From Bifidobacterium psychraerophilum (lineage in GTDB: Bacteria; Actinomycetota; Actinomycetes; Actinomycetales; Bifidobacteriaceae), in NCBI RefSeq assembly GCF_000741705.1, contig NZ_JGZI01000009.1:1-64000 (forward strand): a stretch of DNA of 64,000 nucleotides. Direction: 5' to 3'. Made by a program: the position numbers and the translations under genes. This document shows, in pieces, positions 52,362 through 56,313 of the stretch. Positions within the stretch are counted from its first letter, which is position 1, and each line of letters begins with the position of its first letter. Below the pieces are notes generated by a model. That model was given only the letters and a program-made list of their open reading frames with translations. It searched no databases and was not told where the DNA came from.

Positions 52362-54605
52362 TCAGCGCGCGACCTGCGGACCGCGGGTGTGCTTTTTGAT
52401 CAGGTATTCCTGGCAGTCGATCAGCGGTTGCCCCTGCTCATCGCGGGAATGCCGGATATAGGAGCCGTCCCCCTGCATATGCCAAGAACTGGTCGTATCC
52501 GCCATCTGCAGGTCCACGTATTTGATCAGCTCATCGACCTCGTCGGGCGCGGTGATGCGGACCAGTGCCTCAACGCGGCGGTCGAGGTTACGGTGCATCA
52601 GATCCGCCGAGCCGATCCATACCTCCGGTCCTGAAATCGGCCCTTCGCCGATCTGAGGGCCCTCTGAATTCGCGAATGCGAAGATGCGGCTGTGCTCCAG
52701 GAATCGTCCGAGGACCGAACGAACACGGATGTTCTCGCTCAATCCGGCCACTCCTGGTTTCAACGCGCAGATGCCGCGTTCGACGATGTCGATCTTGACC
52801 CCGGCCTGACTGGCCCGGTACAGGGCATCGATCGTCTTCTCATCGACGAGGGAGTTCACCTTGATCTTGATCCAGGAATCCTTGCCCTGACGGGCTGCAT
52901 CCTCTTCGCGCTGAATGCGCTGAATCAAGCCCGTACGTACCGTTCGGGGAGCGACGAGCAGTCTGTGGAAGCTGGACTTCGGAGCATAGCCCGAGAGCTG
53001 GTTGAACAGCCTGGTGAGGTCCTGGCCGACCACAGGATCGCAGGTCAGCAATCCCAGATCGGTGTAGATCCTTGCCGTCTTGGGATTGTAGTTTCCTGTT
53101 CCGACGTGGCAATAGCGTCTCAGACCCTCCTGCTCCTGACGGATGACCAGTGAGAGCTTGCAATGCGTCTTCAGCCCGACGATGCCGTACACCACGTGCA
53201 CTCCGGCCCGTTCGAGTTTGCGGGCCCAGGCGATGTTGGCCTCCTCATCGAATCTGGCCTTGATCTCCACCAATGCGAGCACCTGTTTGCCTGCGTGCGC
53301 CGCGTCGACCAGGGCGTCGATGATCGGGGAGTTGCCCGAAGTCCGGTACAGGGTCTGCTTGATGGCCAGCACCTTGGGATCCGCGGCGGCCTGGGCGAGG
53401 AAGGCCTGAACCGAGGTGGAGAAGGAGTCATAGGGATGGTGCAGCAGCACATCGTGTTCACGGATCGCCGCGAAGATGTCCTGTGCGCGGCTGGACTCGA
53501 CCTCTGCGATCTGGCGGTTGGTCGCGGGGATGAAGGGTTGGTACTTCAGATCCGCGCGATCGATCGACTGGAGTTCGAAGAGGACGGTGAAGTCGAGCGG
53601 TGAGGGCAGACGATACACCTCGTCCTCGTTCACACCGAGCTTGTCGGCCAGGAGCTGCGAAAGGAAGGGGGAGGTCGTATCCGAAATCTCCAGACGGATC
53701 GGCGGGCCGAAGCGTCTGCGCAGCAGCTCCTTTTCCATCGCGTTCAGCAGATTCTCCGCATCATCCTCTTCGACGTCGATATCCTCGTTGCGTGTGACGC
53801 GGAAGGAACGGGCCTCCTTGATGATCATGCCGGGGAACAGCGCCTCCAGATGGGCGATCAGCAGGTTCTCCATGGTGATGAAGCCATAGCGCTCCTCGTC
53901 GCCCTCCTCATCCGTGAGGTCTTCGACGGCGACGAGTCGTGGCATGTTGTCGGGGATCTTTATTCGGGCGAAGTGAGATTTGCCCGAGGCGGGGTTCTCG
54001 ACGATGACGGCGAGGTTCAGGGAGTTGCCGGAGATGTAGGGGAAGGGGTGTGCCGGATCCACTGCCAGAGGGGTGAGCACCGGGAACACCTGGCGACGGA
54101 AGATGCGCGAGAGGCGTTCCTGCTCGCCGGCGCTGAGCTGGTTCCAACGAAGTAGCACAATGTGCTCATTGGCCAGTTCAGGCAGAATATGCTCATTGAC
54201 ATAATGCGCATGCTCGTTTTGCAGACGGTGTGCATGATCGGATATGGCGCGCAGCTGTTGCCGCGGGCTCATGCCGCTCGCGGCTGTCACGGCGATCCCG
54301 CTGTCTATGCGGCGCTTGAGGCCGGCGACCCGTACCATGAAGAACTCGTCCAGATTGCTGGCGAAGATGGCCGCGAAATTGGCGCGCTCAAGCATCGGCT
54401 GTGTCTCGTCCTCCGCAAGTTCCAGCACGCGCTTGTTGAACTTCAGCCAGCTGATCTCCCTGTCGAAGAAACGATCCTCCGGCAAGGGGTTGGAATCGGC
54501 GGCGGATGCGTCACCACGACGCTCGGCTTTGTCGGTCTCCGCGATGTGTTCGGCGATCTGGCTTCGCAGCACGGCTTTCGAGGGAGCATCAAAAATCTGA
54601 ACCAT
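52362..54605 (-). CDS. ppk: Polyphosphate kinase 1
   Basis: 747 residues. N-terminal domain after an acidic start ([40 protein letters not shown]), head domain, then the catalytic core: [17 protein letters not shown] with the autophosphorylated His, [20 protein letters not shown], and the second His region [21 protein letters not shown]. It makes polyphosphate from ATP reversibly. ATG 54605 gives the conserved N-terminus ([15 protein letters not shown]). CTTACA-17-TTATAC on the minus strand (about 54627-54655) is a plausible promoter. Confidence 0.96.
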
Positions 54606-54654
54606 ATCCCTATCGTAGATGCAGGGGTATAACGCAGAAGTGTCGAGCCTGTAA

Positions 54655-54671
54655 GAATTCAATATGAATTC
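54655..54671. promoter_or_regulatory. Palindromic operator candidate before ppk
   Basis: GAATTCA (54655-54661) and TGAATTC (54665-54671) form a perfect 7-3-7 inverted repeat. It touches the proposed -35 box of ppk (54650-54655 on the minus strand). Its position suits an activator or repressor; the protein is unknown. Confidence 0.45.
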
Positions 54672-54834
54672 ACATAGGCGGTGGCGATCGTGGCGTTTCG
54701 GGCGTTGCGCCGTCTCCGTCAGGACGGCAAAGAAGTGTCTCGACCGGAAGCGGGGGAGAGTGGGAGAGGATGGGATCAACAGGGGGTGTAAGGGGCTTTT
54801 GCGTGGCTCAGCTCTTATGAGGCCGGTGGTCATG

Positions 54835-54866
54835 AAAAAAGGAGGCCTCCCAACCGGGAGGCCTCC
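54835..54866 (-). terminator. Intrinsic terminator on the minus strand
   Basis: GGAGGCCTCCC (54841-54851) pairs perfectly with GGGAGGCCTCC (54856-54866) around a 4-nt loop. Read on the minus strand it is followed by six T residues (54840-54835). It is therefore a textbook Rho-independent terminator for a minus-strand transcript starting near 55000; no protein gene lies there. Confidence 0.9.
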
Positions 54867-55000
54867 TACAAGTCCAACAAGCAGAATCTCTGCACAACAT
54901 CCTCGTTGCAACGGTAAGTCTTTCCATTGCCCGTCCAACGTAACGGTCCTCGTGACCATGTACCTTTGTGGGCTTCTGCTCTGTTCTGTTGTCCTTGTAC
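54835..55000 (-). ncRNA. Candidate structured small RNA, about 165 nt
   Basis: On the minus strand a CATAAT box (55006-55011) with TTGCAT 16 bp upstream (55028-55033) precedes a stretch ending in an intrinsic terminator. The 5' end TACAAG (54994-54999) pairs with CTTGTA (54867-54872) right before the terminator; AGCAGAA (54974-54980) pairs with TTCTGCT (54880-54886); CACAA (54966-54970) with TTGTG (54893-54897); CAACG/CGTTG (54936-54940, 54904-54908) close an inner arm. The result is a long rod with internal bulges, like 6S RNA in outline. It matches no RNA family I can name with certainty. It could also be a ppk leader with attenuator. Confidence 0.6.
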
Positions 55001-55146
55001 TCACTATTATGCCCGGTTTGCGACGGGATGCAAGCCGGGGAGGGGCAATGTCAGCAACTTATCGAAACTGGTAAATCTTGGTGCATGAGAAGGTCCGAAA
55101 GTGCCGTTCATGTGCTCTCAACCGCCCTATATGTGCGTTTCTGTGA

Positions 55147-55188: not shown

Positions 55189-55302
55189 CAACCGAGCCGG
55201 GATCAGGCATTATCCATCCACCATGCCGGTGGGTGACAGTGACATCCGACCACAGCATCGCCATGCATTGTCACGGCCCGGGCGCCTGTGTTGAATCATG
55301 GC

Positions 55303-56313
55303 ATGAAAGAAGCACGCAGACCAGCCAGACGCTCGCCGTCGAGATCACCCAGACGCGCGGCGCGTGTGACGAGGGGGCCAATCGGCCGCCCCCCGGTGAA
55401 GGGGCATACGGCAAGCGAGGTGCGGACGCAGTGCAGGATCGTCGTGTTCGTAGGGGTCAGTGGCGGACTGGGACTGAGTACCTTGGCGGCGATGACGGCC
55501 TGGACCTTCACCGACATGCGGATGCGCTGCACCATCATCGACGCGGATTTCTCAGGCGGCGGGATCGATGTGTTGCTTGGTATCGAGGCGGAAAGCGGTA
55601 TGCGTTTCACCGATATCAAGGCGCCTCTGGGCAGGCTGGATGGCGAGGCACTCGAACACGAGCTGCTTCATTGGGAGGGAAACGGCGTACTGAGTGTGGA
55701 TCCACGGAAGGTGCGGCATCCAGACTGGTGGGAGCAGCAGGCGGCTCTGCATGCATTGCAGGAGGTCAACGACATAGTGGTCGTGGATGCGGGACGAGGT
55801 GAGCGCATCGAGGAGATCGCGTTGCCGCAGAGCGCGCAGATCGTTGTATTGGCGGAACTGTCCGTGCTTGGACTGGCCAGGGCCGGAGTCGCGCTCTCCC
55901 GTGGGCAGCTGACGGCATCCTCCGGCACGGCTCTGGTCATCGGTGTGCACCCCCGTGCGTTACGTGCGAGATCGGAGAGGATATCGGTCCAGGATGCACA
56001 GGAGTACCTGGGTGTCCCGCTGATCGGCGAATTCTCGCCGATCCGGAGACTGGGCTTATCCATAACGCAGGGCTTCGGGATAGCTCGCATCCCGAAACAA
56101 TACAGGTATCTGCTCAGGTCCCTGACGGACGCCCTCCTCGCCGGAGAAGGCGCATCCGGCGATGGGCCGGCGGCACCGCTGCGCCAGGGGACAAAAGCTT
56201 TCGACGACCGGATGAGAGCCGATCCGTCCCCGGTGGACAGACAGAACTCGCATCCCTCTGATGCCGCACCAGGAGCGGGCGCTGTGGGCGCTGCGGAGGA
56301 TATCCATGGATAG
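55303..56313 (+). CDS. TadZ/CpaE-like pilus localisation ATPase
   Basis: 336 residues. A basic disordered start leads into a ParA/MinD-like fold: RIVVFVGVSGGLGLSTLAAM (a deviant Walker A, GVSGGLGLST), CTIIDADFSGGGIDVLLGIE, and NDIVVVDAGRGERIEEIAL. The P-loop has lost the signature Lys of MinD, as in TadZ proteins. It places the pilus machine at the membrane. GTG 55288 is an alternative start. The end overlaps the next gene by 8 bp. First gene of the Tad operon. Confidence 0.85.
   Translation: MKEARRPARRSPSRSPRRAARVTRGPIGRPPVKGHTASEVRTQCRIVVFVGVSGGLGLSTLAAMTAWTFTDMRMRCTIIDADFSGGGIDVLLGIEAESGMRFTDIKAPLGRLDGEALEHELLHWEGNGVLSVDPRKVRHPDWWEQQAALHALQEVNDIVVVDAGRGERIEEIALPQSAQIVVLAELSVLGLARAGVALSRGQLTASSGTALVIGVHPRALRARSERISVQDAQEYLGVPLIGEFSPIRRLGLSITQGFGIARIPKQYRYLLRSLTDALLAGEGASGDGPAAPLRQGTKAFDDRMRADPSPVDRQNSHPSDAAPGAGAVGAAEDIHG

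Follow-up and report, generated by a model that had tools for sequence, protein, structure and literature searches.

What kind of RNA is encoded between the ppk gene and the cpaE-like gene of Bifidobacterium psychraerophilum, and to which known RNA is it related? In the window (the whole stretch of 64,000 nucleotides that was analysed), the gene was placed at 54835..55000 on the minus strand (about 166 nt), and we propose it as a diverged Ms1 of Bifidobacteriaceae from its conservation, folding, covariation and likeness to Ms1. On one side lies ppk, the gene for polyphosphate kinase (52362..54611, minus strand; the start was taken at 54611). On the other side lies a gene for a cpaE/Ssd-like ATPase (55288..56313, plus strand), the landmark of the Ms1 locus, which is divergent from the RNA and was matched by TIGR03815 with 102.8 bits (below the cut-off, 154.45). 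The original prediction had proposed a stand-alone structured RNA, '6S-like in outline', or a ppk leader with an attenuator; Ms1 was not considered there. The closest relative that we found for the window RNA was Ms1, not 6S RNA.

The RNA gene and its distribution

The promoter-like boxes described in the original prediction were read on the minus strand as a -10-like box CATAAT (55011-55006; 55006..55011, minus strand) and a -35-like box TTGCAT (55033-55028; 55028..55033, minus strand) with a 16-nt spacer, and transcription of the small RNA probably starts near 55000. In the relatives, TTGC upstream and GCATAAT or GATAAT recur at the corresponding boxes. At the 3' end, the expected hairpin and T run are present as an intrinsic-terminator-like element (54835..54867, minus strand), of which the stem (54867-54840) has 12 pairs, 9 of them G-C, and a loop of 4, followed by the T run; the terminal hairpin also recurs in the relatives. 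A pattern scan gave no sigma-70-type site over the scan threshold in the region and one terminator-like site, as against an average of 1.2 in shuffles, so that the scan by itself proves nothing. The gene is judged to be real because of the conservation of the whole gene, the recurring boxes and terminal hairpin in the relatives and the covariation (see below), not because of the pattern scan. The window RNA is thus a widely conserved RNA gene, and the stand-alone structured RNA of the original prediction was borne out by the same features. A coding reading was also considered and rejected: although the ppk frame stays mechanically open as far as a GTG at 55004, indels of single bases and compensatory changes occur in the family alignment.

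A DNA search of 59 relatives gave 28 matches, all within Bifidobacteriaceae: 25 of the 27 genomes of the window's genus, with that of the window counted, and three genomes of other genera. The covariance model of the family RNA built from 25 distinct copies (R1) matched 159 of the 189 Bifidobacteriaceae genomes at E<=0.01; among the good-quality genomes of the family, 146 of 161 were matched, and 8 of the 16 genera were represented. The misses of R1 included several genomes of 0.7-1.1 Mb, as well as two of the window's genus that were missed even under looser filters. Genome scans with R1 and with a further model of the family RNA (R3) gave matches in Bifidobacteriaceae only. A search of named genomes with the core pattern found 101 stretches, 94 of which were in Bifidobacterium, Gardnerella or Bifidobacteriaceae; the 7 stretches elsewhere (two Nocardioidaceae with an identical stretch and five others) were taken as chance matches. 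One genome (G466) had two copies of the RNA, at C1:52374-52510 (plus strand) and C1:183931-184067 (minus strand); note that this assembly has 8% contamination.

As far as our literature searches go, which were made mostly outside subscription articles and on texts without supplementary files and found no earlier report of the RNA, the window RNA is undescribed. The available part of a transcript map of B. breve gives RNase P, tmRNA, 4.5S RNA and three riboswitch-type elements (PMC5746004), and the parts consulted of two other papers contained nothing on the family RNA (PMC10832533 and PMC3388012).

Fold and covariation

All pairings listed in the original prediction are present in the sequence. 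The closing helix, TACAAG (54994..54999, minus strand) with CTTGTA (54867..54872, minus strand), was taken from the sequence and the consensus of 25 copies. The outer helix (helix 1 of the covariation analysis) is formed by AGCAGAA (54974..54980, minus strand) and TTCTGCT (54880..54886, minus strand) and 3 of its 4 counted pairs are changed on both sides. The inner helix (helix 2), CACAA (54966..54970, minus strand) with TTGTG (54893..54897, minus strand), hardly varies. Two hairpins follow, of which H1 (TGGTC-ACGA-GGACC; 54945..54958, minus strand; helix 3) has both-side changes in all 6 counted pairs and H2 (CGTTG-GACGG ... CCGTTG-CAACG; 54904..54940, minus strand) has 97.8% of its cells paired and both-side changes in 2 of 10 pairs; within H2, CGTTG (54940-54936) is opposite to CAACG (54908-54904) on the minus strand. 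The CACAA/TTGTG and CGTTG/CAACG arms, which had been predicted to follow the paired ends, stood in the consensus and appeared together in the single-sequence folds of the relatives L028 and L173, but did not occur together when the window copy was folded alone to minimum energy.

The claim that the nested pairing of the ends goes beyond chance was upheld when 134 nt without the terminator were folded (z of -3.25; 0 of 200 shuffles as stable). With the terminator included, z was -6.60, a value inflated by the terminator. Folding energy alone was regarded as moderate evidence, since five relatives folded alike gave z of only -1.8 to -3.1.

The first alignment (A1) was made from 28 copies, from which the duplicates L009, L011 and L012 were removed to leave 25; the consensus by RNAalifold had 33 pairs, 10 of them with both-side changes. 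A second alignment (A5) contained 41 more diverse copies of the family (L308 and L309 were left out), and its consensus consists of the outer helix, the inner helix (CC.CACAA with TTGTG..G.G) and a three-way junction with the two hairpins H1 and H2; 90.5% of the cells of A5 pair under this consensus. In A5, 77 cells were changed on both sides, as against 28.9 +/- 5.0 in shuffles (0 of 500 as high), and the covariation score was 0.284, as against 0.124 at most for slid versions, in a test that favours the structure because it was derived from A5 itself. In A5, neither the number of covarying pairs nor that of pair types was above the shuffles (105/500 and 114/500, respectively). The inner helix is nearly constant in A5, so it provides little covariation information. 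In the alignment of relatives, by which the stems could be checked for compensatory changes, both-side changes were found in H1, the outer helix and part of H2.

Comparison with Ms1

We take MTS2823/Ms1 to lie near the cpaE-like gene Rv3660c. The stretches 5' of the matches to Ssd/cpaE (TIGR03815) were therefore collected from 60 genomes belonging to the order and class. The Rfam model of Ms1 (RF02566) matched 3 of the 18 cpaE loci scanned (L126-L128), and a motif search turned up Ms1-like cores at 22 of the 60 oriented cpaE loci, to which three more (L109, L123 and L132) were added by eye. Eighteen of these 25 cores formed the alignment A2, four Streptomyces-like and three mycobacterium-like cores being left out, and the covariance model of the Ms1 core (R2) was built from these 18. 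R2 matched 89 of 297 genomes of the order at E<=1.5e-4, belonging to nine families, none of which was Bifidobacteriaceae; f3, f5, f6, f7, f9, f14, f18 and f19 were among the other families of the order without a match at this threshold. For the count of positions, the 43 genomes that were matched by R2 at this threshold and also belonged to the cpaE search were used, of which 36 had a TIGR03815 match (E<=1e-15) on the same contig and the other 7 were dropped. In all 36, the recognised Ms1 lay 5' of cpaE, at a distance of up to 2.3 kb in 34 and up to 600 nt in 18; this count is to be read with the fact that 10 of the 36 paired genomes had given training rows of R2, and that the training rows came from stretches near cpaE. 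As for other features of the Ms1 loci, 6C RNA (RF01066) shared the cpaE/HAD neighbourhood with Ms1 in 7 of the 18 loci scanned (L126, L127, L128 and L137-L140), and in one locus (L107:3354-3464, minus strand) the closing helix of Ms1 leads directly into a T run and may double as the terminator.

The window-type RNA is likewise beside cpaE/Ssd, on its 5' side: cpaE adjoins the RNA in 28 of the 28 loci L001-L028, which come from the window's genus and three other genera. In the genus g32 (Bifidobacterium/Gardnerella), cpaE was within 1.5 kb of the RNA in only 5 of 13 loci, and in those 5 the RNA is on the strand of cpaE; the five Ms1 genes of family f17 recognised by R2 also adjoin cpaE on the strand of cpaE. 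Around seven g32 loci, a tblastn search of about 20 kb with the window protein found cpaE 6-7 kb off in two and none in five. In the 34 single-contig genomes of the family, the RNA was within 0.19 genome lengths of dnaA in all 34 (median, 0.106; many of the lengths were rounded). Its transcription was directed toward dnaA in 12 of the 34 genomes and away from it in 22. Ms1 is described, in the part of the paper available, as close to ori and pointing toward it (PMC4191392), whereas in g32 22 of the 23 single-contig genomes have the RNA directed away from dnaA.

Likeness in sequence was evaluated with a profile test, in which 39 distinct family cores (from 43, cut out around CCCAC-type motifs) were compared with 58 Ms1 cores (A4, from which L166 was left out; L192 and L193 were likewise unused) by sequence only. 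The local score was 30.0, as against 16.4 +/- 2.5 in column shuffles and 17.9 +/- 2.6 in block shuffles (0 of 2000 as high in either case); note that the test came after the likeness had been seen by eye, and that Ms1 was the sole RNA tried. When A5 (41 rows) served as the family profile, none of 1000 shuffles was as high for either of two choices of the Ms1 rows, and with other gap costs the counts were 1/1000 and 0/1000. By subset of the family, the window's genus plus g32 gave 0/1000 and the other genera alone 5/1000. The scores of reversed, complemented and reverse-complemented profiles were inside the null. The alignment obtained was in register, with GGAAGCCCAC on GGaACCCAC, H1 on H1, H2 on H2 and GTGCA on TGCA; 10 of the 18 mapped pairs coincide with pairs of Ms1, and 13 of 18 are within one position.

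As positive controls, groups of Ms1 were compared with the order-level Ms1 in the same way: p was about 1e-4 for a group that is probably of Streptomyces, and about 2e-11 for the other class-level Ms1, while the RF02566-positive, probably mycobacterial group gave 6/400; for the family RNA p was about 2e-4. Compared with the class-level Ms1 rows alone, the family RNA was equalled by 17 of 400 shuffles, with the Streptomyces-like rows alone by 125 of 400, and with the mycobacterium-like rows alone by 153 of 400. The significance of the profile holds against the order-level Ms1, and is weak or absent against single distant groups.

The covariance models were applied in both directions. R1 reached at best 13.5 bits on 37 loci, at no recognised Ms1, and R3 gave no match to Ms1 at E<=10 on 38 loci. 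R2 found no copy on the strand of the RNA at E<=10 in 28 + 15 loci of the family RNA; one match of 7.1 bits overlapped the RNA gene of L025 on the other strand. Because the models fail in both directions, the RNA stays a candidate Ms1. Other matches of R2 in genomes of the family (G184 with 25.3 bits, G157 and G000) are away from the RNA and were taken as chance matches. The resemblance of the 5' end, TACAAGG, to TACAAAGG of the Ms1 loci was not counted as likeness, since TACAAAGG appears, from our reading of the sequences, to be the -10 box in these loci.

In summary of the two structures, the window RNA and Ms1 (RF02566; MTS2823 in M. tuberculosis and scr3559 in S. coelicolor) are alike as stand-alone genes on the 5' side of cpaE/Ssd and near dnaA, and both have an outer helix, an internal loop with CCCAC on the 5' side, an inner helix and then H1 and H2. 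The rod with an internal loop and two hairpins, which is typical of Ms1, was found in the covariation-supported consensus of the family. The two are most alike in the internal loop that carries CCCAC and in the junction that follows this loop. In the window, CCCAC comes after the outer helix on the 5' strand (54968..54972, minus strand); the motif does not vary among the 18 Ms1 cores of A2, and 37 of the 41 rows of A5 contain it. On the other hand, the window RNA is about 166 nt long, whereas Ms1 has about 230 nt in S. coelicolor and 304 nt in M. smegmatis, and it is without the 3' signature of Ms1, YTGGTA. Unlike Ms1, it is recognised by neither RF02566 nor R2 and has no HAD gene alongside: the gene for HAD-IB hydrolase, the published neighbour of Ms1, is not beside the window RNA, and the matches to TIGR01490 in the genome (C9:640107 and C10:202870) are below the cut-off.

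Possible role and alternative explanations

On the basis of the Ms1-type position, the sequence profile, the coinciding pairs, the covariation and the nearness to dnaA, we consider that the window RNA is probably a diverged Ms1 of Bifidobacteriaceae that binds core RNA polymerase. Descent of the family RNA from Ms1 is in itself quite likely; binding of core RNA polymerase by the family RNA, suggested by analogy, is somewhat less so but still favoured. The RNA is presumably transcribed and abundant. According to the part of the report available (PMC4191392), stationary-phase cells contain much Ms1, which binds the core polymerase and has an internal bubble that matters for this binding. The RNA of about 166 nt, made from a single gene, would end at the terminator hairpin, and its paired ends would form a rod that leads into the internal loop (CCCAC in its 5' strand), the short inner helix and the three-way junction with H1 and H2. 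If the analogy with the Ms1 of M. smegmatis and S. coelicolor holds, a surface like that of an open promoter might be presented by the loop together with its flanking helices, and core RNA polymerase that lacks the primary sigma factor could bind there. Idle, sigma-free polymerase may be stored in this way in resting bifidobacteria, and the amount of polymerase may be kept up once growth stops.

In the part available of a 2022 survey, Bifidobacterium is described as a genus in which no intergenic region able to contain Ms1 was found, the groups without Ms1 as having syntenic gaps of 20 to 100 nt, and the loss of Ms1 as related to small genomes; the search relied on annotation phrases, HAD hydrolase among them (PMC9130861). 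If the family RNA is Ms1, one case for the loss of Ms1 is removed, and the RNA shows the extent of drift possible in such an RNA with its place and junction kept. A covariation-supported candidate in 159 of 189 genomes of the family also reduces the question of a polymerase RNA in Bifidobacterium to one pull-down.

The strongest alternative, which we regard as rather improbable, is an unrelated RNA that binds polymerase, like CoRP in Corynebacterium, or another protein, and that either originated at the cpaE locus or was transferred to it, and became Ms1-like by convergence. Such an origin would agree with the failure of the covariance models to connect the family RNA and Ms1, but it has to account for the occupation of the same locus as Ms1, the same order of elements and the coinciding pairs in the sequence-only alignment, and a significance comparable to that of the probable Streptomyces group of Ms1. 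It would also agree with the 2024 RIP-seq paper, the available part of which names Bifidobacterium bifidum as a species where RIP-seq could identify a unique polymerase RNA and assumes that such RNAs could be found there (PMC11077062). Replacement of Ms1 at its locus by a distinct, family-specific class of polymerase-associated RNA that converged on the junction architecture is to be rated equally low. CoRP resembles what is proposed for the window RNA in being associated with polymerase and in belonging to actinobacteria from which Ms1 was reported missing; it differs in having about 500 nt and close homologues only within Corynebacterium, as described in the same part of PMC11077062, whereas the window RNA has 166 nt and aligns with Ms1, and the two were set apart by description.

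Many bacterial small RNAs act by base pairing, and the size and the stand-alone gene would fit an antisense-acting regulatory RNA that is unconnected with RNA polymerase. We think this unlikely, for the most conserved stretches lie in the paired arms and around the junction, which would be untypical of RNAs of the seed type.

The window RNA resembles 6S RNA in its rod-like outline with paired ends and in its length, which is within the 150-210 nt given for 6S RNA in the part of PMC4191392 available. However, no Rfam family, 6S and RF02566 included, matched the window RNA at the gathering score; at E<=10 on 701 bases, eight weak matches were obtained (E of 0.97-10, all below the gathering scores), and 6S was not among them, a negative outcome for the suggested search with the 6S models. 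The consensus has a three-way junction and the gene sits at the Ms1 locus, in both of which it is unlike 6S RNA, and a true 6S RNA is very unlikely.

A ppk leader with an attenuator is just as unlikely. The window RNA lies immediately upstream of ppk and shares its strand, as do the copies in 24 of the 28 loci L001-L028 (ppk within 1.5 kb; same strand in 24 of 24), with the terminator-like hairpin standing between the RNA and ppk, but a general role as leader fails because the RNA is on the strand opposite to the adjacent ppk in 13 of 13 g32 loci, and ppk was not found within 1.5 kb in the other four of the 28 (L004, L006, L026 and L028). Since the RNA is on the strand of ppk in all 24 window-type loci and on the opposite strand in all 13 g32 loci, the RNA gene flips as a unit. 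In a Gardnerella locus (L331:8908-12477), the RNA is between ppk and a frame which we take, by its motifs, to be aquaporin-like, and no cpaE was found in the 20 kb around it. In the window, the mechanically open ppk frame (52362-55004, minus strand) spans the RNA gene, and annotation programs could wrongly place the start of ppk at the GTG at 55004.
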